Assembly: GCF_011682145.1 (NCBI RefSeq)
Contig: NZ_WHJH01000004.1
Location: 124,001 to 188,000 of the forward strand
Direction: 5' to 3'
DNA from: Massilia mucilaginosa
GTDB lineage: Bacteria > Pseudomonadota > Gammaproteobacteria > Burkholderiales > Burkholderiaceae_D
Length of the DNA: 64,000 nucleotides
Part shown: piece after piece, positions 1,427-64,000 of the stretch
Numbering within the stretch: position 1 is the first letter of the stretch
Layout of the letters: every line of letters starts with the position of its first letter
Translations under genes and position numbers: made by a program
The notes under the pieces: model-generated
Seen by the model: the letters and a program-made list of their open reading frames with translations, nothing else
The model's database searches: none
What the model was told of the DNA's origin: nothing

Positions 1427-1662
1427 TCCACCCGCAACAATTGCTTGACCGGGGGCAGAGCCCGGCCTGACCCGCCTTGTCCATTCTTTCCCACGCAGGG
1501 CGGGAATGGCCGCAGCGGGACTTTTCCGTTGTAATTAAGTACAATGTTGCCAATCTTTAAGTCGTTATGTTCGCTATCGCACAGAATTGTGCGTTGCGGA
1601 AGACAATCATGTTGAATACATCTCGTAACGACGAGAAATTTTCATTCCCCAAGGAAGATTTA

Positions 1663-3069: not shown

Positions 3070-3090
3070 TAAAAAACTCGAGAGAATACA

Positions 3091-4230
3091 ATGACATTCA
3101 CTAAAAAAGCGGGCCTCATGGGCGCCATCGGCTGCGCCCTGGTGGCCGGGCAGGCGACGGCGGCGGACGACGTCTTCATCAATCCGGAATGGGCCAACAG
3201 CGCTTGGTACGTGGGCGGCAATGTCGGCCAGTCGCGCGCCAAGATCGACGATGTGCGCCTGATCCGCAGCCTGACCGCGAATGGCGCGTCCATGACCAAC
3301 TTCACGGCCGATGAGAAAGATGTCGGCTACAAGTTGTACGTCGGTAAGCAGCTGAACCAGTACTTCGCGGTAGAAGCAGGCTTGTTCGATCTGGGCAAGT
3401 TCGGCTTCAAGTCGACCACCAACCAGAACGGTACGCTCAACGGCGAAGCCGGTTTCCGTGGCGCCAACCTGGACCTGGTAGCGCAAGTGCCGCTCTCGCA
3501 GCGTTTCTCGGTATTCGGCCGCGCTGGCATGAACTATGCCAAAGCGACCACGCGTTTTAACGGCAACCGCCTGTTCGCGGTGACCAATCCGAGCCCGAGC
3601 GAGCGCAAGCTCAACGCCAAGGCTGGTTTCGGCCTGGAATACAAGTTCAGCGAAGCGCTGGCCTTGCGCGGCGAAGTCGAGCGCTACCGCGTCAACGACG
3701 CCGTCGGCAACCGTGGCGAGGTCGACCTGTTCTCGGTCGGCCTGGTCTACAAGATTGGCCGTCCGGCCGCCAAGCCGGTCGCCGCGCCGGTCGAGCCGCC
3801 GCCGCCAGCGGTCGTGCCGACCGTCGCGCCAGCCGCCGCCCAGCCGCCGGTCGAGCCAGCCAAGCCGGTGCCAACGTCGGAAAAGACCACCTTCTCGGCT
3901 GAAGCCGTGTTCGCTTTCGACAGCGCCGTGCTGCGTCCAGCGGGCAAGGCATCGCTCGACGAGCTGCTGAGCAAGCTGCAAGGCATGGATACCGACGTCA
4001 TGATCACGGTCGGCCACACCGACTCGATCGGCAGCGCCGCGTACAACGAGAAACTGTCGCTGCGCCGGGCCGCGTCGGTGAAGGCGTACCTGGTATCGAA
4101 AGGCATCGATGCATCGCGCGTCTACACCGAAGGCAAGGGCGAAACCCAGCCGGTTGCCGACAACAAAACCGCTGAAGGCCGCGCCAAGAACCGCCGCGTC
4201 ACGGTGGAAGTGGTCGGCATGCGCCGCTAA
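3091..4230 (+). CDS. OmpA-family outer membrane protein (copy 2)
   Basis: The 379-residue protein is a close paralogue of the OmpA protein at 284-1426. The two share long stretches such as FVNPEWANSAWY/FINPEWANSAWY, GNRLFAVTNP and ERYRVNDAVGNRG. It has a signal peptide ending near ATAA, a barrel region, a Pro-rich linker (about 230-265) and a C-terminal OmpA peptidoglycan-binding domain with FAFDSA, GHTDSIGS and AKNRRVTVEV. The linker differs most between the copies. An RBS-like GAGAG precedes the start. A strong terminator follows at 4251-4287, so this gene probably ends the four-gene unit. Confidence 0.9.
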   Translation: MTFTKKAGLMGAIGCALVAGQATAADDVFINPEWANSAWYVGGNVGQSRAKIDDVRLIRSLTANGASMTNFTADEKDVGYKLYVGKQLNQYFAVEAGLFDLGKFGFKSTTNQNGTLNGEAGFRGANLDLVAQVPLSQRFSVFGRAGMNYAKATTRFNGNRLFAVTNPSPSERKLNAKAGFGLEYKFSEALALRGEVERYRVNDAVGNRGEVDLFSVGLVYKIGRPAAKPVAAPVEPPPPAVVPTVAPAAAQPPVEPAKPVPTSEKTTFSAEAVFAFDSAVLRPAGKASLDELLSKLQGMDTDVMITVGHTDSIGSAAYNEKLSLRRAASVKAYLVSKGIDASRVYTEGKGETQPVADNKTAEGRAKNRRVTVEVVGMRR

Positions 4231-46850: not shown

Positions 46851-47873
46851 ATGGGCTTGTTCTCGTTCCTCAATAAAAACAAGCAAGAATCCACGGAAGA
46901 TAGTGGCTATTATTCCAAGTCGGACGACGATAGCGTCGCCGCCCGTGCCCGTTCCAAGCGCGCGTCCAGCGCCAACGAACCCGCGGCGCGCCGCAGCAAG
47001 GAAGCGCGCGCCGCCGCCGACCCGGTTTTGCCCGAGAAGAAACGCGCGCGCCGCCGCCTGGTAGGCGCCATTGCGCTGGCGCTGGGCGTGGCGGTCGGCT
47101 TGCCGATGGTGCTCGACTCCGAACCGAAGCCGCTGGCCGGCGACATCGATATCCGCATTCCGTCCAAAGACAAGGTCGCACCGCAGGCGCAGCCGCGCGC
47201 CGTGGCCGCCGCCGATGCGCTCGACAAGCGCGAAGAAATCGTCGAGGTGCCGCCGACGCCGCTGGTGACCTTGCCGAAAGAGCGCCCGGTGCCAAGGGAG
47301 GAAACCAAGCCGCAACCGAAGCCGGTTGTCAAGCCGGAGCCGAAGCCGGTCGTCAAGCCCGAGCCGAAAGTCGTCGCCAAAGTCGAGAGACCGAAGCCGG
47401 AACCGAAGCCTGAGCCCAAGCACGAGCCGAAGCCGGAACCGAAACCGGAGCCGAAAGTCGCCGAGGTCAAGCGCGTCGAAAAACCGGTCGAAAAACCCGT
47501 CGAGAAGCCGCTTGAAAAACCGCTCGCCAAGGCGCCGCCCAAGGCCGAGGAAAAGGAAAAGCCGGCCGTCAAGCCGCCGGTGCCGGACGCCCAGCGCGCC
47601 ATGTCCATCCTTGAAGGCAAGGCGCCCGAGAAATCCGCCGACGACAACCAGCGCTACGTGGTGCAGGTCGCGGCGCTGGCCACCCAGGAAAAAGTCAACG
47701 AATTGCAGGCCAGGCTGGCCGGCGCCGGCATCCGCTCGTTCACGCACAAGACCTCGACCCAGTCGGGCGACCGGATCCGCGTGCAGGTGGGACCGTTCAA
47801 CAAAGATGAAGCCGAAAAAGTGCGCGCCAAGTTAAGCAAGATGGGACTGTCGGGCATCATGGTTCCGGGCTGA
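46851..47873 (+). CDS. SPOR-domain cell-division protein (DedD-like)
   Basis: This is a bitopic inner-membrane protein of 340 residues. It has a charged cytoplasmic tail of about 69 residues and one transmembrane helix at about 70-88 (LVGAIALALGVAVGLPMVL). A long periplasmic linker of KPEPKP and EKPVEKP repeats covers roughly residues 150-235. The C-terminal SPOR domain (about 265-340) begins RYVVQVAALATQEKVNELQ. SPOR domains bind denuded glycan at the division septum. The place between folC and cvpA is that of E. coli dedD. Confidence 0.9.
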   Translation: MGLFSFLNKNKQESTEDSGYYSKSDDDSVAARARSKRASSANEPAARRSKEARAAADPVLPEKKRARRRLVGAIALALGVAVGLPMVLDSEPKPLAGDIDIRIPSKDKVAPQAQPRAVAAADALDKREEIVEVPPTPLVTLPKERPVPREETKPQPKPVVKPEPKPVVKPEPKVVAKVERPKPEPKPEPKHEPKPEPKPEPKVAEVKRVEKPVEKPVEKPLEKPLAKAPPKAEEKEKPAVKPPVPDAQRAMSILEGKAPEKSADDNQRYVVQVAALATQEKVNELQARLAGAGIRSFTHKTSTQSGDRIRVQVGPFNKDEAEKVRAKLSKMGLSGIMVPG

Positions 47874-49943: not shown

Positions 49944-51188
49944 ATGAGCGAGAAGAAAAGCTACGGCTTCACCACGACCATCCTGCACAACGACCGGCAA
50001 AAGCCGATCGAGCATGGGTCGCTGCACAAGCCGATCCACACCTCGGTCACCTTCGGCTACAACGACGCGCGCCAACTGGCGTCGGTGTTCCAGGGGAAGG
50101 AAGCGGGCTTTCGCTACGGCCGCCAGGGCAATCCGACCATCTCCGCGCTCGAAGACAAGATCACGAAGATGGAAGACGGCGTCTCCACCCTGTGCTTTGC
50201 GACCGGCATGGGAGCCATCGGCGCCGTGTTCCAGGCGCTGCTGCGCGCCGGCGATCACATTGTGTCGTCGTCGTTCTTGTTCGGTAATACCAACAGCCTG
50301 TGGCAAACCGCCGCGGGGCAGGGCGTGGATGTGGCGTTTGCCGATGCCACCGACGTGGCCAACGTGGAAGCCGCGCTCACGCCGGCCACGCGGATGGTGT
50401 TCGTCGAGACCATCGCCAACCCGCGCACGCAGGTGGCGGACCTGGCGCGCATCGGCCAGTTGTGCAAGGAGCGCGGCATTCTGTTCGTGGTCGATAACAC
50501 CATGACCTCGCCCTACCTGTTCCGGCCAAAAACGGTCGGTGCGGGACTGGTGGTGAACGCGCTGACCAAGTCGATCGGAGGCCACGGCAATGCGCTCGGC
50601 GGCAGCCTGACCGACACCGGCATGTACGACTGGAGCGCGTTCCCGAACATTGCGGCCAACTACAAGCGCAATCCGCCGGCGCAGTGGGGCATGGCGCAGT
50701 TGCGCGCCAAGGCCCTGCGCGACTTCGGCGCCTCGCTGGCGCCGGAAGCGGCGCACCATATCGCGGTGGGGGCGGAAACGCTGGCGCTGCGCATGGAGCG
50801 GGCATCAAGCAATGCGCTGGCGGTCACGCGCATGTTAGAGGCCGACGAGCGCGTGGCGGCGGTGTACTACCCTGGTCTGGCCTCGCACCCGCAGCATGCG
50901 CTGTCGACCAATCTGTTCAAGGCCTACGGTTCGCTGTTCAGCTTTGAACTGAAAGACGGCATCGACTGCTTCGACTACCTCAATCGCCTCAAGCTCGGTA
51001 TTTCGGCCAGTAACCTGGGCGATACGCGCACGCTGGTCATTCCGGTCTCGCACACCATCTTCTACGAGATGGGTGCCGAGCGGCGCGCCAGCATGGGCAT
51101 CGCCGAATCGCTGATCCGGGTCTCGGTCGGCATCGAAGACAGCGCCGACTTGCTCGACGATTTTCAGTCCGCGCTGGCGGTCGCTTAG
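49944..51188 (+). CDS. Cystathionine gamma-synthase family PLP enzyme
   Basis: This fold-type I PLP enzyme of the Cys/Met metabolism family has 414 residues. The PLP Lys is in NALTKSIGGHGNALGG. FRYGRQGNPTISALEDKIT, CFATGMGAIGAVFQALL and RVSVGIEDSADLL are family motifs. It is only three bases after purF. That position in beta-proteobacteria usually holds a methionine-pathway enzyme (MetZ-like), but the N-terminus here (GFTTTILHNDRQKPIEHG) differs from typical MetZ. The exact substrate is therefore left open. The stop overlaps by two to three bases with the stop of the convergent SWIM gene. Confidence 0.9.
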   Translation: MSEKKSYGFTTTILHNDRQKPIEHGSLHKPIHTSVTFGYNDARQLASVFQGKEAGFRYGRQGNPTISALEDKITKMEDGVSTLCFATGMGAIGAVFQALLRAGDHIVSSSFLFGNTNSLWQTAAGQGVDVAFADATDVANVEAALTPATRMVFVETIANPRTQVADLARIGQLCKERGILFVVDNTMTSPYLFRPKTVGAGLVVNALTKSIGGHGNALGGSLTDTGMYDWSAFPNIAANYKRNPPAQWGMAQLRAKALRDFGASLAPEAAHHIAVGAETLALRMERASSNALAVTRMLEADERVAAVYYPGLASHPQHALSTNLFKAYGSLFSFELKDGIDCFDYLNRLKLGISASNLGDTRTLVIPVSHTIFYEMGAERRASMGIAESLIRVSVGIEDSADLLDDFQSALAVA

Positions 51189-53146
51189 CTGTCGCTGGCC
51201 AGGGTGTGCAGCAGCGCGTACAGCGCTGCCAGCCGCTCCGGCAGTATTCCCGGGTCGCTGCTTTTCACGCTCTCCAGCGCGGCGGCCAGGGCGTCGGCGC
51301 AGCGCGTCAGGCCGGCCGCGCGCAGGGCTGACGCCTGTTCCGCGGCGCGCACCACGGCGGCATCGCCCTGATGCCGCACTCCCTGGCGCAGGCTTTGCGC
51401 CAGCAGATTCATCGTCCCTTCCAACAGTTCATGCAGCGCGCTTTTGTCGTCGCCCTGGCCGCGCGCCAGATGCACGGGCGTGCCTTGCGCCGCCAGTTGC
51501 GGCACCTGCAAGCCCTGCGCCGTCAGCACCGCCAGCGGCATCATGCTCAGTTGCCCGGCCTCGCTCGATACGCTGCCCGCCAGCGCCAGCGGTCCATCGG
51601 CCAGCGCGCGCGCCAATGCATCGATGGCACCCGGCGTGGCCGGGTCGTGCCGCAGGCGCAGCAGCAGGAGATCGTCCTCCCCGAGCGCTACCTGCACGCG
51701 CGCGCACAAGGTCTGGCTGGCGGCATCCCACAGGCAGTCGACGACGGCCGCCACCGGCACCACATGCACATGCTCGATCGCGTGCAGCGGCCGCACGAAA
51801 TCGGGCGGCAGGGAGCGCAGGTGCGCGCGCAGGCTGGCCACGTCCGGCTGGCGCAGCGGACTTGCCAGCGTGTCCCAGGCGCCGCCGGACAGCGGCAGCG
51901 CCGACGTCTGCGTGGCGCCGGTGCCGACCGTCAGCAAGCCATTGGCGCGCCGCTTGGCCGCCCGCGTGACAATCTGGCTGGCCGCCAGCCGGTGCAGCGG
52001 CATGCCCACCAGGCGCCGGTCGCGCAGGGCGACGGCGGTGACGCCGCTGTCGCCGCGCGGCCAGGTTTTTTCCATGACGGTGACGGCCAGCGTGTCGGGG
52101 TCGGCCCAGATCATGCGCACGCCGTCGACCGCTTCGTCGGACCAGCACTGGCTGCCCATCGGCACCAGGCGCAGGTGGTCGAGCGCCACTTCACCGGAGA
52201 CCCCCACGCCGAGAATCTGGCTGGCCGGCAGGGGCGTGCGCGCGCGCGCCGCGCCCAGGCGGGCGATGAGCATCGAGACGAGGTGCAGCAGGGTGGCCGG
52301 ATCGGCATTGCTGGCGCGCGCATGCTGGCCGGCGACCGCCTGGCGCAGCTGGGTCAGCGCTTCGACCACCCAGCGCCATCCGAGCCGACCGGCTTCCTGG
52401 AGCGCCTTTTCGAAGCGCGTGTCGAGGATCAGGGGACTCTGGCTGGTGCCGTCGAGCCAGAGCTGGGACGCCAGCGCCACGATTGCTTCGGCAGCACTGC
52501 CGCCATCCTGCAGCGGCGCCGGCGCCGCATCGGCGCCCAGGTCCAGCTCCACCGTGATGCTGGCAAAGCCGCTCTGCTGGCGCTGGCCCTGCGCAAAGGC
52601 CCACACGGCCAGCGCAATGTGCGCGCAGTTCTCGGCCTGTTTGCAGTCGCAGCGCGCCAGCGCCAGGCTGGTACGCGACAAGAAGCGCACATCGCACATC
52701 GGCAGGCGGGCATTCGGCGTGGACCCGGCCGTGAGCCGGATCGCCGGGCGTGCGGCCGCCATGCGGCGTGCCTGCTCGAGCGTCGTGCGCGGCAGCAGAT
52801 CGACCGCGCCGGCCAGGGTCGACGGGCACCACGGCGCGGTGTCGGCCACGGCCTCGCTGGCGCCGCCGGCGTATTTGGACTGATACGCCAGCACCAGTGT
52901 GACCCGGTGCCGGCACAGGCCCGTGGCGGGACAGCTGCAGCGCGCTTCGCGCAGCGGCAGGCCAGGGGGCAGGGTGGTGCTGACGCCGTCGACGTAGCGC
53001 GCCAGCACGGTGCCGTCGGGCTGCTGTTCGATCTCGGGTAGCTTGCCTTCGACGACATCTTTCTGCGCGCGCTTCACGAAGCCCGCGTTCGACAGCGCGG
53101 TCAGCGCATCCACGCTCAGTTCCAGCAAATCGGTACGGGTGCTCAT
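51185..53146 (-). CDS. Double SWIM zinc-finger protein (YehQ-like)
   Basis: The 653-residue protein has two SWIM-type zinc motifs (CxCx5CxH): Cys70, Cys72, Cys78, His80 in CSCPATGLCRH, and Cys166, Cys168, Cys174, His176 in CDCKQAENCAH. The remaining part is Ala/Leu-rich and without a recognised domain. SWIM modules bind DNA or proteins. It is the last gene of the minus-strand operon. Its ATG overlaps the VWA stop (ATGA), and its own stop overlaps the convergent PLP enzyme. In E. coli the matching gene yehQ lies near yehL, yehM and yehP. Role unknown. Confidence 0.8.
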   Translation of the reverse strand: MSTRTDLLELSVDALTALSNAGFVKRAQKDVVEGKLPEIEQQPDGTVLARYVDGVSTTLPPGLPLREARCSCPATGLCRHRVTLVLAYQSKYAGGASEAVADTAPWCPSTLAGAVDLLPRTTLEQARRMAAARPAIRLTAGSTPNARLPMCDVRFLSRTSLALARCDCKQAENCAHIALAVWAFAQGQRQQSGFASITVELDLGADAAPAPLQDGGSAAEAIVALASQLWLDGTSQSPLILDTRFEKALQEAGRLGWRWVVEALTQLRQAVAGQHARASNADPATLLHLVSMLIARLGAARARTPLPASQILGVGVSGEVALDHLRLVPMGSQCWSDEAVDGVRMIWADPDTLAVTVMEKTWPRGDSGVTAVALRDRRLVGMPLHRLAASQIVTRAAKRRANGLLTVGTGATQTSALPLSGGAWDTLASPLRQPDVASLRAHLRSLPPDFVRPLHAIEHVHVVPVAAVVDCLWDAASQTLCARVQVALGEDDLLLLRLRHDPATPGAIDALARALADGPLALAGSVSSEAGQLSMMPLAVLTAQGLQVPQLAAQGTPVHLARGQGDDKSALHELLEGTMNLLAQSLRQGVRHQGDAAVVRAAEQASALRAAGLTRCADALAAALESVKSSDPGILPERLAALYALLHTLASDS

Positions 53147-54294
53147 TGCGCTATTTTCTCCGCCAGCCAGGCGGCCAGCTGGCCCGGCGTCATGGCGGCG
53201 ACGTGGGCGCCAACGCGCACCAGGCGCGCCGCCGTCTCGCGGTCGTAACTCGGATTGGCCGCCGAATCGAGCGCCGCCAGGCCCAGTACGGTGGCGCCGG
53301 CCGATATCAGCGCCTGCACGCGCCGCACCAGTTCCGTGTCATGGCCGCCTTCGTAAAAATCGCTGACCAGCACCACCACCGTGCGCTGCGGATTGACCAC
53401 CAGCGACTGCGCATACGCTACCGCGCCGGCGATATTGGTGCCGCCGCCGAGCTGCACTTTCATCAGCAGTTCGACCGGATCGGAAACATCGGCCGTCAGG
53501 TCCACGACCGTGGTGTCGAAAGCGATCAGCGAGGTACGCATGCCTGGCAGCTGCCACAGGCAGGCCGCCATCACCGCCGAGTGAATCACCGAATCGACCA
53601 TCGAGCCGCTCTGGTCGATCAGCAGGATGACGTCCCAGCGCTCGGCGTGGCGCTTGACGCGGCTGATGAAGGCCGGCCGCTTGATGTACAGTTTGCGCCG
53701 CTCCGGGTCCCAGTGTTTCAGGTTCCCGGCCACGGTGCGCTTGAAATCGAAATTGGCCGCCGCCGCGATGCGCGACGGGCGGCGCCGGTCGCGGCTGCCG
53801 CCAAACGCCTGGCGCACTTCGGTCACCAGTTTTTCCATGATGCGGCGCACCACTTCCGCCACCAGGCGGCGCGCCGCCGACAGCACGTCGGGGTTCATCA
53901 GGTGCTTGGTGTGCAGGACGGCGCGCAGCAGCGTCTCGGATGGTTCGATCCGCTCCAGCACTTCCAGGTTGGTCACCACGTCATCGATGCCGAAGCGTTC
54001 GACCGCGTCGCGTTCGAGGCGCTCGATCACCTCTTGCGGGAACAATTCGTGGATGGTGTTGATCCAGTCGGGCGTGCTCAGTACCGATGCACCGTCGGGC
54101 GAGCCGGTACGGTCCTGCGCTTGCTGGCGTTCGCCGCGCGCCAGCCGGTCCGGATCGCGCCCGTACAGCCACTCCAGGGCCTCATCGGCGGCACTGGCCG
54201 GGCCGGCCGGGCAAGGGATGCAATTTTCGGCGGTTTCGCCCAGCAGCAGGCGCCAGCGCACCAGCGGATCGGGCAGCGTCAATGGCCCGCTCAT
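53143..54294 (-). CDS. VWA-domain protein (YehP-like)
   Basis: The 383-residue protein has an N-terminal helical region and a von Willebrand A domain from about residue 218. The MIDAS metal site is complete: Asp227, Ser229 and Ser231 (DQSGS), Thr286 in GGGTNIAG and Asp312 in LVSDFYEGG. It has no signal peptide. VWA proteins encoded beside MoxR ATPases usually act with them as a metal-dependent chaperone or maturation pair. ATG 54294 overlaps the stop of the upstream gene, and the long in-frame extension to 54762 lies inside that gene and is not used. Confidence 0.88.
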   Translation of the reverse strand: MSGPLTLPDPLVRWRLLLGETAENCIPCPAGPASAADEALEWLYGRDPDRLARGERQQAQDRTGSPDGASVLSTPDWINTIHELFPQEVIERLERDAVERFGIDDVVTNLEVLERIEPSETLLRAVLHTKHLMNPDVLSAARRLVAEVVRRIMEKLVTEVRQAFGGSRDRRRPSRIAAAANFDFKRTVAGNLKHWDPERRKLYIKRPAFISRVKRHAERWDVILLIDQSGSMVDSVIHSAVMAACLWQLPGMRTSLIAFDTTVVDLTADVSDPVELLMKVQLGGGTNIAGAVAYAQSLVVNPQRTVVVLVSDFYEGGHDTELVRRVQALISAGATVLGLAALDSAANPSYDRETAARLVRVGAHVAAMTPGQLAAWLAEKIAQ

Positions 54295-56624
54295 GGCGCG
54301 ATTCCCCAGATGGCCAGGCGCTCGATGGCGGCGCGTTCGAGCGCATCGTGCCGCGCCAGCAGCGCGGGCGCCGTGGCGAGGCGGCCGGTAAGGGAGCGCT
54401 GCGAGCGGTGGCCGGCGTCGTGCAGCTTGAGCACATCGCCAGCGAGCGCGCCGCGCTCCTGGGTTGGCAGCCAGGTAAAGGCGGCGCGCATCGCCGGCAG
54501 CGCCAGCACGAAGTCGGCGTCGTCCAGGGTGCGCACCAGCGCGTCGAGCGCCTTGACGAAGCGCGCGTCCTGGCACAGGGACTGGCGCGCCAGTGCCAGC
54601 AGGCCGGCCAGGGCGTCGCCCACCATGGCCGGCGGCAGGGAGGCGAGCAGCTCGCTGGCCAGGGTGCCGGCATCGGGATCGGCATCGCTGGCCAGCAGCA
54701 GGCCGAGCGCCGCGCCACGGCTGACGGGCGCCGCGTCCATGCTGGCTGCCACGCGCCGGCACACCGCAAGCGCGCGCAAGGCTTCGACGCCGGGCAGCGC
54801 GCTAGCGCGTGCTTCGCGCACCAGCATGGCGATGGCGCTGTAGGTGCCGACGTGGGCATCCTGCTCCATCGGGGCCACGCCGCCGCCCGCTTCCGCCAGC
54901 CACAGGGCGCGATCGAAGGCGGCGCCGATGGCCGTTTGCAGCACCGCGCTGCCGCTCACGCCAAGCGCGTCGCCGTGGCGGTACAAGGCAAACAGCACCT
55001 GCATCGGACTACCCAGCTCGCCGAAGTGCGCTTCCTGGCCGATGGCCTCGTGCAGCTCGCCGAGCAGGCGCCCGCTCACATCGGCCAGGCCGGCAAAGGC
55101 GGCGCGGTTCAGGGCGCCGGTAATGGCGCCGATCCGGCTGCTGCCGGCGGGACGCTGGCGCAGGATTTCTTCGAGGCGCGCGCGGGCCGCGTCGTGCAGG
55201 GTGGCGCCGTAGGTGGCCGCTTCGATCAGCGCGGCGCGCTGTTCGAGCGGTGCGCGCACGTCCCAGGTTTCTTGCTGGCCGCGCCCGAGCGCCAGGTTAG
55301 GGCCCGTGCTGCGGACGATGCCGGGAATGTCGAGCAGGGCCAGACGGTGCAGGGCGCGGCTGCGCGCACGCTGGGCCGGGTCGAGCAGGTCGATCCTGAC
55401 CTGGCTTGGGAGAACGATGCCGAGCGCCGCCAGTTCGGCCTCGACGGCGGCCACCAGCGGCGGCTGCGGCGTGCCGGGCGCCAGCTCGCCGACGGCGTCG
55501 CCGGCCAGCACCGCCATCACTTCCACCAGCGCGGCGTCGGTACCCGGACGCACGCGGCCCCGGTAGGTCCAGGGCAAGGGCACGTCCAGCGCCTGGCTGA
55601 CCAGGCTGCCGGCCAGCGCATCGAGCCAGTCGCTGCGCAGCGGCGCCGGGTGCGCGCGCATGCGCGCCAGGCCCATGGCGCGGCTGTGGATCGCAATCAC
55701 GTCGGCGGTGGAGGCGGGCAGCTTTTTCTCGCGCAGGCGCGCCAGCACGGTGCGCAGCAGTTCCTTGCCGGCGCCCGCCAGGCCGAGCGTCCAGGCCCAT
55801 TCGTACCAGGCGGGCGACGACATGCCGGATGCATAGCCGTCGTACGCATCGAGGCGCTTGAAGTGGTAGGGCACCAGGTAGGAGCCGTAGCGCAGGCCGG
55901 GCGCGCTCGGCGGCAGCGGCGTTTCTGGCTCGCTGGCGCAGTCGGCGGCGGGAATGGCGCGCCACAGCGCCGCCAGTGCGGGCGCATGGTAGCCGCCGCA
56001 GACCACCACTACCGGGCCGTCGTCCTGGTGCATGGCCCAGGCGATGTGGCGCGCCATCATCGCCTCGCGCGCCTGGTTGCCCGGCGAGCCGGGGTCGCCC
56101 GCGCGCAGATGGGCGAAGTGCGCATCGAGCCGGGCCGACAGTTCGTCAAACGCCAGCTCGCCCTCGAACAGATGGTCCCAGAGCGCGTCGCGGCCGTCGA
56201 TCGCCATCGCGCGGCACAATGCATCTTCGTAGGCTGCCGCCGCATCGGGAGCGTCGTCGTCGTAGCGGTTCGAGATGCACGCAAAGGCGTCGTGCCAGGC
56301 CGGCAGGTCGATGAAGCGCAGTTGCGCGCCGCACGCGCGCGCAGCCTGCATGGCCTGCCATTCGGGCGAATGCAGCGCGAACGGCGACCACGAGGCGCGC
56401 CGCTCGAGCGCGTCTTCCGCCGCCGAGAAGTAGCTGTAGATCGCCACCGGCAGCCGGTGCGGCAGCGCCAGTTCGCCAAGGCGCGCGTTGAAATCGGCCG
56501 GGCCTTCGATCAGCACGTGGCGCGGCCGCAGTTCGGCAATGCGCTGCACCGCCAGCCGCGCGCAGGCGGGGCTGAAGTGGCGCACGCCGATGATCAGCGG
56601 CTCGCGCTGCGCAACCCGTGTCAC
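54291..56624 (-). CDS. DUF5682-family protein (YehM-like)
   Basis: The 777-residue soluble protein starts at GTG 56624, overlapping the MoxR stop (GTGA). The N-terminus (IIGVRHFSPACARLAVQRI, RPRHVLIEGPADFNARLGEL) carries a His and an acidic motif reminiscent of TraB/ChaN-like folds, consistent with DUF5682. The rest is a long alpha-helical repeat-like region. Members occur with MoxR and VWA genes, and E. coli YehM is the comparison I would make. No catalytic activity is established for the family as far as I know. It is translationally linked to both neighbours. Confidence 0.82.
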   Translation of the reverse strand: MTRVAQREPLIIGVRHFSPACARLAVQRIAELRPRHVLIEGPADFNARLGELALPHRLPVAIYSYFSAAEDALERRASWSPFALHSPEWQAMQAARACGAQLRFIDLPAWHDAFACISNRYDDDAPDAAAAYEDALCRAMAIDGRDALWDHLFEGELAFDELSARLDAHFAHLRAGDPGSPGNQAREAMMARHIAWAMHQDDGPVVVVCGGYHAPALAALWRAIPAADCASEPETPLPPSAPGLRYGSYLVPYHFKRLDAYDGYASGMSSPAWYEWAWTLGLAGAGKELLRTVLARLREKKLPASTADVIAIHSRAMGLARMRAHPAPLRSDWLDALAGSLVSQALDVPLPWTYRGRVRPGTDAALVEVMAVLAGDAVGELAPGTPQPPLVAAVEAELAALGIVLPSQVRIDLLDPAQRARSRALHRLALLDIPGIVRSTGPNLALGRGQQETWDVRAPLEQRAALIEAATYGATLHDAARARLEEILRQRPAGSSRIGAITGALNRAAFAGLADVSGRLLGELHEAIGQEAHFGELGSPMQVLFALYRHGDALGVSGSAVLQTAIGAAFDRALWLAEAGGGVAPMEQDAHVGTYSAIAMLVREARASALPGVEALRALAVCRRVAASMDAAPVSRGAALGLLLASDADPDAGTLASELLASLPPAMVGDALAGLLALARQSLCQDARFVKALDALVRTLDDADFVLALPAMRAAFTWLPTQERGALAGDVLKLHDAGHRSQRSLTGRLATAPALLARHDALERAAIERLAIWGIAP

Positions 56625-57736
56625 GGCAGGCGGTGGCGCGCGTTGAAGTATTCGCGCCAGTGGTTGCCCTCGCGGCGCGCGACGCGCTGCTCGAAATAGC
56701 GGCGCAGTTTGGCGCGGTCGTCCGGATTGTCCTTGACCACGGTGCCGGCGATGCAGTCGACCAGGTCGGCCGCGTTGCCGGCGCGCTGTTCCAGGAACCA
56801 GGCGCGCACGCCGACCGCATGCGCCACGTTGACCGCTTCGGCGGTCGACATCACGGCGGCCAGCTTGTCCATGCCGTCCGGCGCGCCTTTTCCGCCGCCG
56901 GAACGCAGGTCGCGGAAGGTCGATACCAGCAGGTCCAGGATGGGGCCGGGGACGCGATGCGGAATGCCGCTGCGTTCCAGCAGGCGGGCCGAGGCTTGCT
57001 CCACCAGCGCCAGTTCGTGTCCGAAGTCGAGGATCGGGAACACGGTCTCGAAGTCGAAGCGGCGTTTCAGCGCGGCGCTCATTTCATTGACGCCGCGGTC
57101 GCGCGTATTGGCGGTGGCGATGATATTGAAGCCCTCGCGCGCATACAGCATGGCGTGCTCGTTTTCCAGTTCCGGCACCGCCATCACGCGGTCCGACAGC
57201 ATGCCGAGCAGGCAATCCTGCACTTCCAGCGGGGCGCGCGTGATTTCTTCGAAGCGCACGATCAGGCCGTCGCGCATGCCGTGGTACAGCGGCGCCGGCA
57301 CCAGCGCGCGCGGGCTCGGGCCTTCGTTGATCAAGAGCGCGTAGTTCCACGAGTACTTGATCTGGTCCTCGGTGATCGACGCGCCGCCCTGGATGGTCAG
57401 GGTCGACTGCCCGCACACGGCGGCGGCCAGCAATTCCGACAGCATGGATTTGGCGGTGCCGGGTTCGCCGACCAGCATCAGCCCGCGCCCGGTGGCCAGG
57501 GTCACCAGCATGCGCTCGATGGCGGCGACCGGCGCCACCACCTTGCGTTCGATGCCAAGGGCCTCGTCGCCGCTGATGAAAGCGCGCGCCGCGTTCAGGC
57601 TCAGGGCCCACCCCGGCGGGCGCGGCGCCTTGTCGGCCTTGGCCAGTTTGGCCAGCTCGCCCGCGTACTGGATTTCCGCCGGTGGGCGCTGCATCGCTGC
57701 GGTTTTGGTTTTGCTCATTGCTGTGGTCCGACTCAT
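56621..57736 (-). CDS. MoxR-family AAA+ ATPase (YehL-like)
   Basis: The AAA+ ATPase has 371 residues from ATG 57736; ATG 57718 is an alternative, and neither has a clear ribosome site. Walker A GEPGTAKS is at residues 90-97. Walker B is VRFEEITRA, with Glu in place of the usual Asp-Glu pair. Sensor 1 is ATANTRDRG, and ALKRRFDFE carries the arginine finger. MoxR ATPases remodel or activate partners, commonly with VWA proteins. It stands 52 bases after a DUF4132 gene and is directly coupled to the DUF5682 gene. Confidence 0.9.
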   Translation of the reverse strand: MSRTTAMSKTKTAAMQRPPAEIQYAGELAKLAKADKAPRPPGWALSLNAARAFISGDEALGIERKVVAPVAAIERMLVTLATGRGLMLVGEPGTAKSMLSELLAAAVCGQSTLTIQGGASITEDQIKYSWNYALLINEGPSPRALVPAPLYHGMRDGLIVRFEEITRAPLEVQDCLLGMLSDRVMAVPELENEHAMLYAREGFNIIATANTRDRGVNEMSAALKRRFDFETVFPILDFGHELALVEQASARLLERSGIPHRVPGPILDLLVSTFRDLRSGGGKGAPDGMDKLAAVMSTAEAVNVAHAVGVRAWFLEQRAGNAADLVDCIAGTVVKDNPDDRAKLRRYFEQRVARREGNHWREYFNARHRLP

Positions 57737-57788
57737 GAAAGGTTGTCGTGCGCCGTTTGTGGATTTGCCGAGATGATAACGTCTTTTC

Positions 57789-59744
57789 TCATGCGCGCAA
57801 GAATTCGAGATCGCGAATCAATTCACTGGCGGCGACCGGATCGAGCGTGGACAGGGTGCCGGCGACGACCTTCTTCAAGGTCTGCTGCGGATATTCGTGA
57901 ACCAGGCCCGCAATGATACCGGGGGTTATGTGCAGTTCGGCCAGGCGGCCGTCGGCGAGCGGTTTGTTGAAGGTGACGATGCTGCCGCCATCCTGCGCCG
58001 TGCCACGGCGCCAGCCCTTGTTGGCCAGTCCCAGCACGCGCCCCGTCGGCACCACCACCCCTTGCCAGCGCAGCAGCGATGTGGCCATGGTCTCTTTTTT
58101 GCTCAAGGCACGGGTGTCGCGCCCGATCTGGGCAAACGGCTGCAGCAGCTCGTAGTCGGCAAACAGCTGGCCGAAGGCTGCGGCGTCCATCGGCGGCAGG
58201 TCGAGCGCATGCGGAATACCGATGTGGAGATTGCCGCACGCAGGCGGCAGGAACTCATCGTCGCCGGCGGTGGTGGTGGCGCCATCCGGTCCGACCCGAA
58301 AGCACGCCAGAAGACGCCCGCCGTCGCTGGCGCCTGGTTCGAGTTCGTACACGCCCAGCACCAGCCGCCGCACCAGATGGCGCACCAGCGGGTGGCAGGC
58401 CAGCAGGCGCACGAACACCTCCGGCTGCCAGCGCCGCTGCGCGCACATCGCCAGTTCGAGCCGCCTGACCTGCTGCGCTGCGATGGTGCGGGCGTCCTGC
58501 TTGAGCAGCTTGAAACGCGCCACGGCCGCCTTGGCCAACGCCGCTTTGTCTTTTCTGTTCGGCTTTGGCAGGCCAGGCAGGCGCGCACCGGCGGCGTCGC
58601 GCACGTAGGGCTTGAGCGCTTCGTCGAAGCCGACGCGGAACTGGCGGGCCCCGAAGTCGAGCAGCAAGGTGCCTTGTTGGTCCAGTCCCAGGTCGGGCGC
58701 GAGACGGTCTTCCAGTTCGTCGGCGCTGAGCCGGCGCGCTGCGGCGACCTGTTCGATCTGTTCGCGCGCCTTGTCCTGCAGCGCCTTGAAGCGGACCTTT
58801 TGCGCGATCCCGTTGAGGAGCATCAGCGCGGTGTCGGTGCCGATGGCGGCCAGCGCAAGCACGCCGATGGCCGCGCGCCCGTGCTGGTTCCGGCCTGGCC
58901 AGGCCCGGATCAGCGGCGTCAGTTTGCGCGCCACGTCGTCGTTGCCCAGGAGGCCAAGGCTGGTAAAGGCCCAGTTCTCCTTGATGTCGCCGCCAGCGCG
59001 CAGCCAGGCGTTGAACAGGTCCCAGGCAAAATCGGCCAGCGACGCCGGCGTGCAGGCTTGCTGTACCTGGACGATGCCTGGGTAGATACCGTGCGACCGG
59101 GGAAACCGCAGCATCACGCCGAGCCGCTCGATCGCGTCGTCCGGCAGGGCCATGCCGGTACTGGCCAGATGCGGGCGGGCCGCGCCGCGCTTTTTCCAGA
59201 ATGCGGGCAGCGGCGCGACTGTGGCGAAATAGCGTTCGAACGGATCCTCGTCAAGCATCGCCCGCATGGCCGCACGCACCGCGTGGTCCGCGTAGCGGTC
59301 CGCCACATCCAGCAGCAACGCGGCGTGGCCGCTGGCGGCGAGCATGCGTAGCGCGCCGATGGCGTTTTCGCGCGCAGTCCCGGCCTTGCCCAGGGCCGGC
59401 GCTATCAGCGCGTACGCGGCGCGTTCCGGGTTGGCCAGCAGCCAGCGATGTGCCATGTCGCGTTCGGCCTTGCCGTTGGCGTAGATACGCGCCGCCAGTG
59501 CCACGTTGCCGGCGTCGATAATGTCTTCATTGCCTGGTTTGATCACGCGTACCGCCGAAGGCCTGCGCTTGGGAAGCTGCTTCTTCTTCGGCAGCGGCTG
59601 GCGTTGTGCGTCCAGGGGATGGGGCAGCGGCGCCAGTGCCAGCGGCTTGGAGCGCGTCATGCGAGGCGCCAGCCACGGTGGGTTCACCAGCACTGCGGGC
59701 AGGCCGGCCGAATCGCCTGCGGCTGGCCAAGGAGCGAGTTTCAT
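57789..59744 (-). CDS. DUF4132 protein, short paralogue without WGR domain
   Basis: The 651-residue protein is homologous to the C-terminal half of the 1229-residue protein encoded just upstream. Shared blocks include PFDRYF/RF-type repeats, ENWAFTSLGL/NNWAFTALGL, DELEDRLAPDLGLD and the end motif ASELIRDLEFLRA. The WGR domain and first half are absent, and a Lys/Pro-rich stretch (PKKKQLPKRRPS) stands near the N-terminus. Helical HEAT-like repeats cover about residues 80-340, followed by the DUF4132 core. ATG 59744 overlaps the upstream stop (ATGA). It arose by duplication of the neighbour. Function is unknown. Confidence 0.85.
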   Translation of the reverse strand: MKLAPWPAAGDSAGLPAVLVNPPWLAPRMTRSKPLALAPLPHPLDAQRQPLPKKKQLPKRRPSAVRVIKPGNEDIIDAGNVALAARIYANGKAERDMAHRWLLANPERAAYALIAPALGKAGTARENAIGALRMLAASGHAALLLDVADRYADHAVRAAMRAMLDEDPFERYFATVAPLPAFWKKRGAARPHLASTGMALPDDAIERLGVMLRFPRSHGIYPGIVQVQQACTPASLADFAWDLFNAWLRAGGDIKENWAFTSLGLLGNDDVARKLTPLIRAWPGRNQHGRAAIGVLALAAIGTDTALMLLNGIAQKVRFKALQDKAREQIEQVAAARRLSADELEDRLAPDLGLDQQGTLLLDFGARQFRVGFDEALKPYVRDAAGARLPGLPKPNRKDKAALAKAAVARFKLLKQDARTIAAQQVRRLELAMCAQRRWQPEVFVRLLACHPLVRHLVRRLVLGVYELEPGASDGGRLLACFRVGPDGATTTAGDDEFLPPACGNLHIGIPHALDLPPMDAAAFGQLFADYELLQPFAQIGRDTRALSKKETMATSLLRWQGVVVPTGRVLGLANKGWRRGTAQDGGSIVTFNKPLADGRLAELHITPGIIAGLVHEYPQQTLKKVVAGTLSTLDPVAASELIRDLEFLRA

Positions 59745-62700
59745 GCGCACAGTGTCTCCATGTCCCGAATCAGTTCACTGGCGGCGATGGCGCTCAAGGT
59801 CGACAGCGGCTGGCCCTTGTCGAAGCTGCTCCAGGCCCCTGCGCTGCCGATACTGACCTGTTCCATGATCTGGTCTTCCGAATCCATGATCGAGCCGAGC
59901 ATCAGACCCGGGCCGAAACGCAGTGCCACCGTGCGCCCGTCGCCGAGCGGCCGGTTGAAATCGAAGACGAAGCCGGCATCCTGCGCATCGCCGCGGTCCC
60001 ACCCCTTGTGCGCCAGTCCCAGAAGGCGCCCGACAGGCACCTCGATCCCTTCCCAGCGTGTGAGCGCGCTCGCGGCCAGTTCGTCAGCGGTCAGCGCGTA
60101 GGTGTCGCGCCCGATCTGGGCAAACGGTTGCACCAGCTCGTAGTCGGCCAGCAGCTGGCCGAAGCCGGCCGCATCCTGCGCCGGCAGGTCGAGCGCATGC
60201 GGAATGCCGATGCGGATGTTCTCGCCCTGCGGCAGTTGCCAGGTGTCGTCGGCGGCGTCGGTCAGGTCGTCATCCGGGCCGACCCGGAAGCAGCCGAGCA
60301 AGCGGCCGCCGTGGCTGGCGCCCGGTTCCATGTCGTAGGCGCCCCACACCAGCCGCTGCACCAGATGGCGCACCAGCGGGTGGCCGGCCAGGAAGCGCTG
60401 GAAGATGGCCGGCTCCCATCGCCGCTGCGCGCACATGGCCATCTCCAGCCGCAGCACCTGTTGATCCGCGATGCTGCGCGCATCCTTCTTGAGGGCCTTG
60501 AAGCGCTCCGTCGCCGCCGCCGACAGCACGGCATCGTCGCTCTTGTTCGGCTTGGGCAGGTCGGCCAGGCGTACGCCGAGCGCATCGCGCACGCACGGTT
60601 TGAGTGCTTCGTCGAAGCCGACGCGGAACTGGCGCGGGCCAAAATCGAGCAGCAGGGCGCCGTCGCCGTCGAGGCCCAGGTCGGGCGCCAGGCGGTCTTC
60701 CAGTTCGTCGGTGCTCAGATTGCGCGCTTCCGCGATCTGGCTGATCTTGTCGCGTGCATTGTCCTGCAGCGCCTTGAACTTGACCTTCTGCGCAATCCCG
60801 TTCAGCAGCATCAGGGCCAGGTCGGTGCCGATCGTGGCCAGGATGTCCAGACCGGCAATGGCGCGCGCGTTCTGGCTTTCGCCCGGCCAGGCGCGGATCA
60901 GCGGCGTGAGCTTGCGCGCGCAGTCATCGCCGCCGAACAGGCCCAGGGCCGTGAAGGCCCAGTTGTTCTTGGCGTCGCCACCGGCGTCGGCCCAGGCGCT
61001 GAACAAGTCCCAGGCGAAGCGGCTCAGGGAGTCGGGCGTGCATGCTTGCCGCACTTGATCGATACCGGCGTAGACACCGTCCGCCTGGGGAAAGCGCAGC
61101 ATCACGCCGATCAGGTCGAGCACCTCGTCGGGCAGCGGCTTGCCGTTGGCGGCCAGGTGCGGACGCGCCCAGCTGCGCGGCATCCAGAACGCCGGCAGCG
61201 CAGCGATTTTGGAAGGGAAGCGGTCGAGCGGATCTTCGTCCAGCATGGCGCGCATGGCGGTGTTGACGGCGTCCTGGCCATAGCGGCCGGCCACCGCGAT
61301 CAGCATCGCTTCGTGGCCGTTCGCGGCCAGCAGGCGCAGTGCGCTGGCGGCGGCATCGCGCGCCGCGCCAGCCTTGCCCAATGCCGGGGCGATCAGGCCG
61401 CAGGCGGCATGCTCGGGATTGGCCAGCAACCAGCTGCGCGCCATATCGCGCACGGCCCTGGACTTGAGGACGGCCAGCGCGCGCGCCACCGGCGCCGCCA
61501 GTTCCACGGCGCCGAAGTACATCGCATACTTCAATTCTTCGACCGGCCGGCGCTCGCACATCACCACCAGGCCGGCAAGGGCGTCGATCCCCATGCTGCC
61601 GATGGCGTGACCGGGCGAGTTGATGTCGTACTTCGCCATGGCTGCCCACACGGCCGCGTTGAATGGCGGCGGCAGCTTTGCGATGGCATGCACGCTGTTG
61701 GCCATTTCGTGGCCGCGTTGGCGGTAAGCTTCCCAGCACGCGACCACGCCTGCCACATCGCCGGCGGCGATCGCGGCCGCATCGTTCGGCGTTTTGAACC
61801 CCGATCCCCCGTACGTGTAGAGGATAAGACGCCGTTCGCGCAGCACGCGCTGGCGTTCGGCGTCGCTCCAGTGTTCGACTGGCGCCAGCGGCAGGGGAGC
61901 GAGCAGCAGTGCCTTGCTTGCGCCTTTCGCCCGCGCCAGCCATGGTGGGTTGGCCAGCACCGCCGGCAAGTCGCCGGTATCAGCAGCGTCGGCCGGCGCT
62001 TCCAGGCGGCCGGCAAGGCCGTCGAGCACCTTGACCGCCGCTGCGGACAGCCATGGCGTCAAGGCGGGCAAGGCTGCCAGGTGTTGCGGCACCAGTGCGG
62101 CCAGCACCGAGCGTGCCGCGCCGGGGGCGCGCTTGTCGGTGGCGATCAATTCGGCCAGGCCGGCGACGGCGGCGAGCGGCCAGCGCGCCGACGCCGACGT
62201 CAGGCGCTTGATCGCCTTTTTTGCGGTGATCGACGCCAGCGCGCGGATCGCCTCCGGCGTGCCGATGCTGGCGATGGCGTCGGCGGCCAGGTCGGCGCCG
62301 GCCCCGTCGCGCAGCGCCGCCACGGCGTCGGTGCCACGGTCCTGGATGGCGGTCGCAATCATCTGCGGCTTGTCGTACCACGCGAACAGGTAGAAGTCGT
62401 CGCACGCCTTGATCGTATCGAGGGCGCACATGCTGGCGGCGTCGCGCACCGTCAGGCGCAGCCACGCCATCGAGGTGGGGTAGACGGGACCGGACGCGGC
62501 GACGATGGCGTCCGACAGGCTCGGAGCGTCGGGCAGCAGCACGCCGAACAGCGCTTGCCGGTGCGCCGCCAGCGAAGGCAAACGGTCGCGAACCAGCTGC
62601 ACGCAGGCGTCCCATACATCTTGCGGCGCATGCGCCAGATGGGAGCGCAGTGCCAGCTCGGTTTTGCCGAACACGTTTTCGGTGGGGGCGAACCATTGCC

Positions 62701-63430
62701 CGGCATCGTCGTCGATGCAGATGCCGGGGTTGCGCAGCCCTTGCTGGCGCACGCTGATGCGTTCCATCCGCAGCAAGGTGTCGAGGGCGTACGCGATGCC
62801 TTCGCGGGCCACCAGGAAGTCGATGAAAGGCACGCCATCGGACGGCGCCAGCAGGTCGTCGAAGGTGCTCGATAGTGCCAGCAAGACGATGTCGGAGGCG
62901 GCGGAGCCGTCGCGCTGCCCGTGTTCGATGCGCTGCGCCGCCTCGTCCATCGCCGGACGCCAGCCCGACGCCGAGAGCGCGGGACTGAGTGGCGCGCATT
63001 GCCGCGCATGGGCCAGGAACAGGTTCCAGCTGGCGTCGGCGTCGATTGCGGGCGCATTGCCCGGGAAGCGGCGCGAGGGCAGGGCCAGCGCCATCATCGT
63101 GGCCGGCATGTCGATCAGCGGGGAGACGGCCAGCCAGGGGGCGATGTCGGACGCGGGCGCGGGCGCCACCACCGGCACTGGTGCCGCCGGCGCGGGCACT
63201 GGCGTTGCCGCCACTGGCGCACCGGCCCCGGTTTCCGCGTAGCCCTTGCCGGTTTTTTCGCGTATCAGCTTGGCCATCGCCGCGCCGGCCGTGGCGGCAT
63301 CCGGATGGTTCTTGGTCTGGACCTTGCCCGCCGTGCCGATCTTGCCGAAGCAGACCGTGACATCGCTGCCGTCCTGGCTCACTTCCCAAAATTTGCTGGA
63401 AACGCCATCGCTCAATTCAAATCGCAGCAT
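59741..63430 (-). CDS. WGR and DUF4132 domain protein (YehI/MolR-like)
   Basis: The 1229-residue protein has a WGR domain at about 1-75 (FWEVSQDGSDVTVCFGKIGT, KLIREKTGKGY), a fold known in PARPs and bacterial DNA-linked proteins. A Pro/Ala linker follows. Long alpha-helical HEAT-like repeats cover about 110-820, and the DUF4132 region lies at about 840-1229 (DELEDRLAPDLGLD, IGIPHALDLP, ADYELVQPFAQIGRDT, ASELIRDMETLCA). E. coli YehI has the same order of domains. WGR suggests nucleic-acid or nucleoprotein contact, but target and activity are unknown. The stop overlaps the next gene start (ATGA). Confidence 0.88.
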   Translation of the reverse strand: MLRFELSDGVSSKFWEVSQDGSDVTVCFGKIGTAGKVQTKNHPDAATAGAAMAKLIREKTGKGYAETGAGAPVAATPVPAPAAPVPVVAPAPASDIAPWLAVSPLIDMPATMMALALPSRRFPGNAPAIDADASWNLFLAHARQCAPLSPALSASGWRPAMDEAAQRIEHGQRDGSAASDIVLLALSSTFDDLLAPSDGVPFIDFLVAREGIAYALDTLLRMERISVRQQGLRNPGICIDDDAGQWFAPTENVFGKTELALRSHLAHAPQDVWDACVQLVRDRLPSLAAHRQALFGVLLPDAPSLSDAIVAASGPVYPTSMAWLRLTVRDAASMCALDTIKACDDFYLFAWYDKPQMIATAIQDRGTDAVAALRDGAGADLAADAIASIGTPEAIRALASITAKKAIKRLTSASARWPLAAVAGLAELIATDKRAPGAARSVLAALVPQHLAALPALTPWLSAAAVKVLDGLAGRLEAPADAADTGDLPAVLANPPWLARAKGASKALLLAPLPLAPVEHWSDAERQRVLRERRLILYTYGGSGFKTPNDAAAIAAGDVAGVVACWEAYRQRGHEMANSVHAIAKLPPPFNAAVWAAMAKYDINSPGHAIGSMGIDALAGLVVMCERRPVEELKYAMYFGAVELAAPVARALAVLKSRAVRDMARSWLLANPEHAACGLIAPALGKAGAARDAAASALRLLAANGHEAMLIAVAGRYGQDAVNTAMRAMLDEDPLDRFPSKIAALPAFWMPRSWARPHLAANGKPLPDEVLDLIGVMLRFPQADGVYAGIDQVRQACTPDSLSRFAWDLFSAWADAGGDAKNNWAFTALGLFGGDDCARKLTPLIRAWPGESQNARAIAGLDILATIGTDLALMLLNGIAQKVKFKALQDNARDKISQIAEARNLSTDELEDRLAPDLGLDGDGALLLDFGPRQFRVGFDEALKPCVRDALGVRLADLPKPNKSDDAVLSAAATERFKALKKDARSIADQQVLRLEMAMCAQRRWEPAIFQRFLAGHPLVRHLVQRLVWGAYDMEPGASHGGRLLGCFRVGPDDDLTDAADDTWQLPQGENIRIGIPHALDLPAQDAAGFGQLLADYELVQPFAQIGRDTYALTADELAASALTRWEGIEVPVGRLLGLAHKGWDRGDAQDAGFVFDFNRPLGDGRTVALRFGPGLMLGSIMDSEDQIMEQVSIGSAGAWSSFDKGQPLSTLSAIAASELIRDMETLCA

Positions 63431-63465
63431 CGTTCATCCCGAATGTAAAAGTATGGGCGCGCCGC

Positions 63466-64000
63466 TCAGGCGCACAAGTCTTGCATGTCGCGTATCAGTT
63501 CACTGGCGACGATGGAGCCCAGCGTCGACAGAGGATAACAAGCCGCTTTGCCGTTGACTGTCTGGCTATCCGTGACGCGCACTTCCTTCAAGCGCTGTTC
63601 CGGCTCGTGCTCGGGCATGCCGACGATCAGGCCGGGGTCGAGGTGCAGTTCCAGCAGGCGGCCGTCGCCGAGTGGCTTGTAGAACTCCCCGATCCAGCCG
63701 CCGTCCTGCGGGTCGCCGCGACGCCAGCCTTTGTTGGTGAGGCCAAGCACGCGTCCCGTCGGCACTTTTTCGCTGTCCCAGCGCGTCAACGCGAGCGTGC
63801 CCGATTCCGCCCCGGTGAGCGCGTACGTGTCGCGCCCGATCTGGGCAAACGGTTGCAGCAGTTCGTAGTCGGCAAACAGTTGGCCGAACGCGCTTGCCTC
63901 GGCGGCGGGCAGGTCGAGCGCATGCGGAATGCCGATCACAGCCTCCGGCGGCAGGTCGAACACCTCGTCGGCGGCGCTGGTGAGCGCCCCATCCGGTCCC
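63466..64000 (-). CDS. DUF4132 protein, C-terminal fragment (third copy)
   Basis: The open frame enters from beyond the window end and stops at 63466-63468. The 178 visible residues show the DUF4132 end region: GPDGALTSAADE, IGIPHALDLPAAEA, FADYELLQPFAQIGRDTYAL, KGWRRGDPQDGG and VASELIRDMQDLCA. It is as similar to the two downstream DUF4132 proteins as they are to each other. The WGR/DUF4132 gene starts 35 bases later, so this is probably an earlier gene of the same operon. Confidence 0.88.
   Translation of the reverse strand, partial: GPDGALTSAADEVFDLPPEAVIGIPHALDLPAAEASAFGQLFADYELLQPFAQIGRDTYALTGAESGTLALTRWDSEKVPTGRVLGLTNKGWRRGDPQDGGWIGEFYKPLGDGRLLELHLDPGLIVGMPEHEPEQRLKEVRVTDSQTVNGKAACYPLSTLGSIVASELIRDMQDLCA

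Follow-up and report, generated by a model that had tools for sequence, protein, structure and literature searches.

Three traits of the MoxR-vWA ternary conflict systems have been described (Kaur et al. 2020, PMC7159879): MoxR, vWA and a large variable third component are encoded in one gene run, a genome may hold several paralogous systems, and a fast-evolving component stands beside constrained ones. The third component comes in VMAP, iSTAND, FtsH and beta-propeller types. Here we describe a gene run from Massilia mucilaginosa that shares these traits. It lies in a 64,000-nt stretch of DNA (the window, C361:124001-188000 within the 7.70-Mb genome, G000) and continues beyond it, coupling genes for a MoxR-type AAA+ ATPase, a VWA protein, a DUF5682 protein and a SWIM protein to a tandem array of eleven DUF4132 genes. 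On sequence comparison the ternary conflict systems are the closest described class, and by Pfam profiles we did not assign the run to one of its named types. We read the run as a form of the Escherichia coli yehI-yehL-yehM-yehP-yehQ system, i.e. a conserved MoxR AAA+/VWA machine that has DUF5682 and SWIM proteins as partners and is preceded by a tandem repertoire of giant WGR-solenoid-DUF4132 proteins, which we take to be recognition proteins; to this reading as a whole we give a probability of about 0.5.

The five-gene set as such is already known as the E. coli yeh set. An open-access full-text search found no paper giving the yeh/DUF4132 locus a function, and in that literature nothing on a DUF4132 array, on copy-number turnover or on mosaic alleles; three of its papers mention DUF4132, whereas DUF5682 is absent from it, and so is 'SWIM zinc finger' together with MoxR. 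In an ST131 study the DUF4132 region figures as a site of transposon insertion (PMC9334617). Another study describes a K-12 deletion termed molR1 that interacts with lepA in growth (PMC4245954); the name probably belongs to a gene of the yeh locus.

The gene run and its eleven DUF4132 copies

Seven genes, all with open frames, follow each other without a break on the minus strand from position 51185 to 64000 of the window, with the overlaps and gaps that a preliminary description of this DNA had given. In order of increasing coordinates they encode a SWIM protein (51185..53146, 653 amino acids (aa); two CxC..CxH zinc-finger motifs, from residues 70 and 166), a CoxE-type VWA protein (53143..54294, 383 aa; MIDAS-type DQSGS at residue 227 and GGGTN at residue 283), a DUF5682 protein (54291..56624, 777 aa; GVRH at residues 13-16 and GGYH at 210-213), a MoxR-type AAA+ ATPase (56621..57736, 371 aa; Walker A GEPGTAKS at residue 90 and Walker B region LIVRFEEI at residue 158) and three DUF4132 proteins. 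Of these, D11 is short (57789..59750, C361:181789-183750, 653 aa) and without WGR and N-terminal solenoid; D10 (59741..63430, 1229 aa) consists of WGR, a HEAT-type solenoid and DUF4132; and D9 (1222 aa) occupies 63466..64000, where it is cut by the window edge, the whole gene spanning C361:187466-191134 (to 67134 in window numbering). The Pfam families found above cut-off on the window proteins are, in the same order, SWIM, VWA_CoxE, DUF5682 and AAA_5, with WGR and DUF4132 on D10. Overlaps of 4 bases join neighbours at 53143-53146, 54291-54294 and 56621-56624, and also at 59741-59744 if D11 starts at its alternative ATG at 59744; gaps of 52 and 35 bases separate D11 from MoxR and D10 from D9, respectively.

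Three DUF4132 copies had been counted previously, which proved to be an undercount when the sequence was extended past position 64000. The array comprises eleven consecutive minus-strand DUF4132 genes without internal stops (C361:181789-219585), three of them visible in the window, and extends 31.6 kb beyond the window edge. The whole minus-strand run of ~44 kb reaches from D1 (C361:215917-219585) through the SWIM gene, ending at C361:175185. A promoter-like TCGACA-17-TAAAGT precedes D1 (1 found versus 0.2 expected), and the same stretch is readable ahead of the array in four related genomes. Gaps between neighbours in the run range from -10 to 94 bp, except for 336 bp between D5 and D6, which hold the remnant of another copy.

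The array paralogues are 43-66% identical to each other. Eight of the eleven are full or near-full length (1147-1253 aa), and eight retain 54-59 of 59 conserved residues; D3 retains little of the WGR and D4 none of it, one conserved segment is missing from D6 (1187 aa), and D8 and D11 are short, D11 still keeping 49 of the 59 residues. The AlphaFold2 model of D10 (mean predicted confidence, pLDDT, 90.6) displays an alpha-solenoid followed by a C-terminal alpha/beta domain (residues 926-1229); a fold search returned generic HEAT/ARM solenoids. Among nine Massilia paralogues (D8 and D11 omitted) identity is 61% for WGR, 65% for the constant solenoid and 58% for the C-terminal domain, and falls to 41 and 45% in two variable segments, namely those that match the variable blocks of E. 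coli described below. Arrays of DUF4132 genes recur in Glycomyces, Klebsiella and Escherichia. The Massilia run of eleven (ten in Massilia rubra) is the longest we met, with ~3-5 among the matches listed in 42 other genomes.

Co-inheritance and distribution

Using the DUF5682 alignment as bait in a GTDB genome scan, we analyzed the best 80 of at least 555 relatives. MoxR was found in 79 of these 80 loci, VWA in 78, SWIM in 76 and DUF4132 in 73, with all five families in 71; these are from Proteobacteria, Actinobacteria and some other groups. The genes are thus co-inherited rather than scattered, in answer to the genome comparison that the preliminary description had proposed. Its further idea of a fixed complex holds for MoxR, VWA, DUF5682 and SWIM, but not for the DUF4132 component, which varies in number and sequence. 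At least two DUF4132 frames (counted from 300 aa upwards, inside 10-kb flanks) are present in 29 of the 80 loci. A recurrent sixth partner was not found among them, only clusters of neighbours from mostly Variovorax, i.e. close relatives. Distribution is patchy, with DUF5682 in 12 of 299 sampled genomes of the phylum (own genome included). DUF4132 gave no match in 50,697 phage records, one locus matched among viral contigs, and DUF5682 occurs in 29 of 72,556 plasmid records, some of them chromosome-sized; on this scarcity, carriage of the system by phages or plasmids was rejected.

Relatives of the set are found elsewhere in the M. mucilaginosa genome. A module at C383:84561-92063 contains SWIM, DUF5691, MoxR, DUF5682 and VWA_CoxE genes; it has the MoxR, DUF5682, VWA and SWIM families in common with the window set but has no DUF4132, and a DUF5691 gene precedes MoxR. 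At C155:43648-55968 lies a second, divergent DUF4132-MoxR-DUF5682-VWA set whose two DUF4132 genes encode 961 and 983 aa; a shorter frame gives a third match. Its MoxR and DUF5682 are 47 and 29% identical to those of the window, and the matching set of Massilia atriviolacea holds four DUF4132 genes. Two more DUF4132 genes (C33:46584-50030 and C111:259936-263805) are 55 and 50% identical to D9; the 18-kb stretches around them gave no match to MoxR, DUF5682, VWA or SWIM.

Mosaic alleles at the E. coli yeh locus

The likeness to the yeh genes that had been noted earlier extends to the whole system: the same five families appear in the same order and orientation as in Massilia, and DUF5682 is 47% identical. 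E. coli also has a tandem DUF4132 array, of three or two copies as compared to eleven in Massilia, and differs by a small gene, yehK, between yehI and yehL. In K-12 the order is metG-yehF-yehH(pseudogene)-yehI-yehK-yehL-yehM-yehP-yehQ. Strains R10, TUM14771 and PEC403 carry three open DUF4132 genes ahead of yehL, which we named E1, E2 and yehI, and the other six of nine E. coli records have two DUF4132 slots. Direct comparison matched K-12 yehF to positions 1-823 and yehH to positions 937-3795 of a single E2-type gene; K-12 therefore has yehI and one broken E2, but no E1. The first gene is E1 in EC190759 (99-100% identical to R10 E1 in local windows) and E2-type in AF6 and S1-CAM-02-A, the respective other gene being lost; these local identities ruled out that the first gene of the three strains is an E1/E2 fusion. 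A DUF4132 or yehL-yehQ gene is broken in at least five of the nine records (K-12, EcPF16, 214-4, AF6 and EC190759), several of which end before yehQ.

Between R10 and TUM14771, identity is 99.4% for MetG, 98.9% for YehL, 96.2% for YehM, 97.4% for YehP and 96.2% for YehQ; for the DUF4132 proteins it is 85.9% (E1), 76.4% (E2) and 92.1% (YehI). In E2 the WGR and the C-terminal half are constant, and residues ~51-660 are replaced. Accordingly, the nonsynonymous rate (dN) is 0.02 for residues 1-60, 0.07-0.63 for ~61-660, where the synonymous rate (dS) runs from 0.86 to saturation, and 0.01-0.08 beyond. E1 has a block with dS 1.2-1.6 at ~481-720, and YehI varies mostly at ~440-600 (65-85% identity). 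Against TUM14771 E2, and with residues numbered as in R10 E2, the AF6 gene shows identities of 100% over ~236-485, 14-43% over 535-660 and 90-98% beyond. By these alignments the E. coli DUF4132 alleles are mosaics, in a sample (16 proteins from eight of the nine records, without EcPF16 or the broken K-12, 214-4 and AF6 genes) that leans towards divergence, as five strains were chosen for low coverage of query blocks.

The wider population was surveyed in 5426 E. coli genomes, with counts that reflect DNA coverage and not unbroken genes. The metG-yehL region (metG included) has some match in 5376 of them and is covered to at least 80% in 4503. At the same coverage threshold, the E2 constant half is present in 5275 genomes, all matches having at least 90% identity, the R10 central block of E2 in 662 and the TUM14771 central block in 3371. 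Some match to these two blocks is found in 4786 and 4890 genomes, in the case of R10 mostly to a quarter of the block at ~80% among the matches listed. The second segment is covered to at least 80% in its R10 form in 864 genomes (any match in 865, all at 95% or more), in its TUM form in 3369 (any match in 3968) and in its AF6 form in 619 (any match in 4059, partly perhaps through a shared query edge). At least three forms of this segment are therefore present in E. coli, and the sets of genomes carrying them may overlap. Replaced central segments in otherwise nearly fixed proteins are a pattern to be expected of proteins that track changing partners such as viruses.

Turnover of the array within Massilia

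We compared the locus with that of Massilia rubra (G009), M. atriviolacea (G004), M. frigida (G006) and M. aquatica (G003). In five of 17 genomes of the genus (own included) the island is present, flanked by metZ and a TPR gene that are 44.6, 40.9, 36.0, 31.9 and 14.7 kb apart; in the other 12 of 17 genomes the distance between these two genes is less than 2 kb (~100 bp in G002 and G016). The islands contain 11, 10 (one partial), 8, 8 (one partial) and 2 matches to PF13569 (DUF4132), some in broken genes. In a tree of 51 sequences (three short ones omitted), D1, D4, D5, D6, D7, D9 and D10 form lineages common to two or more species. Their order is identical in M. mucilaginosa, M. aquatica and M. 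rubra, and likewise for D9-D10 in M. atriviolacea. In M. frigida a D6-related copy sits downstream of D10, and M. rubra and M. frigida have an extra copy adjoining MoxR that is missing from M. mucilaginosa. Gaps retain remnants of an additional copy (between D5 and D6), of D11 in M. aquatica and of D1 in M. frigida, and a gap piece in M. atriviolacea is closest to D1 (45% over 171 aa). From the lineages shared across species and the order and placement of their copies, we conclude that the array predates these species and that copies were lost, gained and moved without homogenisation. From the gap remnants, the two-copy array of M. atriviolacea is inferred to be a contraction.

The dN/dS ratios against M. 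mucilaginosa, calculated for intact orthologues picked from the tree (D1, D4-D7, D9 and D10; D2, D3, D8 and D11 omitted; VWA and SWIM without M. atriviolacea), are 0.018-0.048 for MoxR, 0.10-0.14 for VWA, 0.12-0.18 for SWIM and 0.15-0.20 for DUF5682. In the array they are lowest for D10 (0.12-0.21); next in gene order come D9 (0.18-0.24), D7 (0.21-0.24), D6 (0.23-0.39), D5 (0.34), D4 (0.24-0.30) and D1 (0.39-0.44). Constraint thus declines roughly with distance from MoxR, and no gene exceeds 1. Likeness to replaced segments is limited in Massilia to G006_68503 versus D2 and to the paralogue profile, and we claim replacement for E. coli. A hypervariable cassette in D9 of M. rubra, hinted at by BLAST windows, was gone on full alignment. 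Two genes in congeners, G003 C55:249515-252607 and G006 C99:72240-74945, are both without approximately the same 200-residue solenoid piece (around D10 516-713), with the frame open.

With regard to the surroundings of the run, G+C content is 68-74% in window positions 52001-64000, the island part, and 61-69% in the remaining window. The protein encoded at 46851-47873 contains much lysine, proline and glutamate, and its C-terminal part resembles what we take to be a SPOR domain.

Comparison with described systems

The third component of the Massilia system is a WGR-solenoid-DUF4132 protein with many copies per machine, and with Pfam profiles alone (D10, WGR and DUF4132; D11, DUF4132) none of the VMAP, iSTAND, FtsH or beta-propeller types was found in its place. 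Two further fixed partners, DUF5682 and SWIM, set it apart from the ternary conflict systems, the DUF5682 gene standing between the MoxR and VWA genes. Variation at the Massilia and yeh loci takes the form of tandem copies and replaced segments, whereas in the ternary systems, according to the same text, it involves effector domains on vWA or diversity-generating retroelements (DGR). The main text of PMC7159879 contains no word starting WGR, DUF4132, SWIM, TraB or yeh. Against the bpMoxR profile, the window MoxR scores 16.9 bits (cut-off 27 bits) and the MoxR of the related C383 module 28.9 bits.

The GVRH and GGYH sequences of DUF5682 are two GX2H motifs, presumably the signature of the TIKI/TraB/ChaN superfamily. 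In 43 aligned proteins R15, H16, G210 and H213 are invariant and G13 nearly so. A match to ChaN at E 0.039 is below cut-off; at E 0.05, TraB was matched in two of 43 members and ChaN in two of 43. Probabilities from hhalign were 2.3 and 0.6%, both at residues 184-213. We did not adopt the assignment as a TIKI/TraB/ChaN hydrolase, for which the support is at motif level.

Proposed function and alternative explanations

A constant WGR and C-terminal half flank a replaced solenoid, many solenoids occur per machine, and the ATPase is the most constrained component; this argues for a shared AAA+/VWA machine that reads many recognition proteins. The machine would probably serve diversifying intracellular recognition proteins in biological conflict. 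The variable solenoid would bind a range of ligands inside the cell, most probably proteins or nucleoprotein complexes that stem from invaders, and the constant C-terminal half would be the docking or output part read by VWA-MoxR. Upon ATP hydrolysis, VWA-MoxR would remodel the loaded DUF4132 protein, and this protein or its ligand might then be passed to DUF5682/SWIM as output. One machine could in this way serve many receptors, with new specificities arising from birth and death of copies and from recombination of central segments. In our judgement the DUF4132 proteins are of a cytoplasmic kind, and strain-variable recognition by such proteins suggests invaders, e.g. phage or plasmid products. 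Weighing against this proposal are the near-universal E2 constant half (5275 of 5426 E. coli genomes), the many broken DUF4132/yeh copies in E. coli, the housekeeping neighbourhood of the locus and a search of PADLOC-DB 2.0.0 that matched none of six window proteins at E 0.01.

CoxD/CoxE and CbbQ/CbbO are MoxR-VWA pairs that remodel endogenous targets, and the locus could likewise encode a cofactor- or complex-maturation machine, with DUF4132 proteins as adaptors for different endogenous clients and their variation as tolerated drift. The CoxE type of the VWA protein, an E2 constant half found in almost every E. coli genome and the purifying selection throughout are consistent with this, and the old name MolR, reportedly from work on molybdate, would fit as well. 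The same may be said of the molR1-lepA growth interaction (PMC4245954), if that name refers to a gene of this locus. Against it stand bounded allelic blocks within one species between almost unchanged flanks, the eleven diverged copies, the lack of an island at the site in 12 of 17 congeners and the absence of a recurrent metabolic neighbour from the 80 loci. We regard such a machine as rather unlikely. In another reading, unequal crossing-over amplified a weakly constrained gene, leaving a neutral or selfish array that is largely decaying. Scars and broken copies, the degeneration of D6, D8 and D11, the rise of dN/dS roughly with distance from MoxR and the broken genes in at least five of nine E. 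coli loci would agree with it. But eight of the eleven copies keep nearly all conserved residues (54-59 of 59) and open frames of 1147-1253 aa, lineages were retained across species with dN/dS below 0.5, and further arrays exist in Glycomyces, Klebsiella and Escherichia; we consider this reading quite improbable.

The system might also respond to DNA damage: WGR would bind DNA lesions, and complexes of repair or replication would be what the AAA+ machine remodels. This, too, appears improbable. It is favored by a profile match to the WGR of PARP3, by LexA-like boxes with one mismatch ahead of E. coli yehF and of the type II set of M. atriviolacea, and by an increase of the Deinococcus radiodurans DUF4132 protein DRA0166 upon DdrO depletion, as reported in PMC8533742. 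Yet in five Massilia genomes the 300 bp ahead of the array contain no LexA-like box (at most one mismatch), and such boxes precede four of 26 proteobacterial operons (1.7 expected), two of the four, at ~+40, inside the coding start. The actinobacterial box precedes six of 24 operons in Actinobacteria (3.5 expected), once perfectly (0.18 expected). Enrichment is clear in neither group. D4 and D11 are without WGR and D3 without most of it, and damage recognition leaves the replaced segments unexplained. The general stress or SOS link considered in the preliminary description is thus not supported, and the biological-conflict role that it had also considered becomes the best fit in view of copy-number turnover and replaced allelic segments.

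Significance

A more specific form of the conflict reading, which we put forward tentatively, takes the system to be an immune-receptor repertoire of prokaryotes, in which a tandem family of intracellular receptors shares one AAA+/VWA machine; the solenoid of these receptors would diversify as strains exchange allelic segments and as copies are born and die. If true, it would combine a repertoire within one genome (11 proteins in Massilia) with polymorphism in the population (one segment in at least three forms in E. coli). The locus is present in nearly all E. coli, and if it is viewed as a MoxR-VWA machine of which one component is modular and differs between strains, its function becomes testable, with the Massilia island as a natural repertoire to study.

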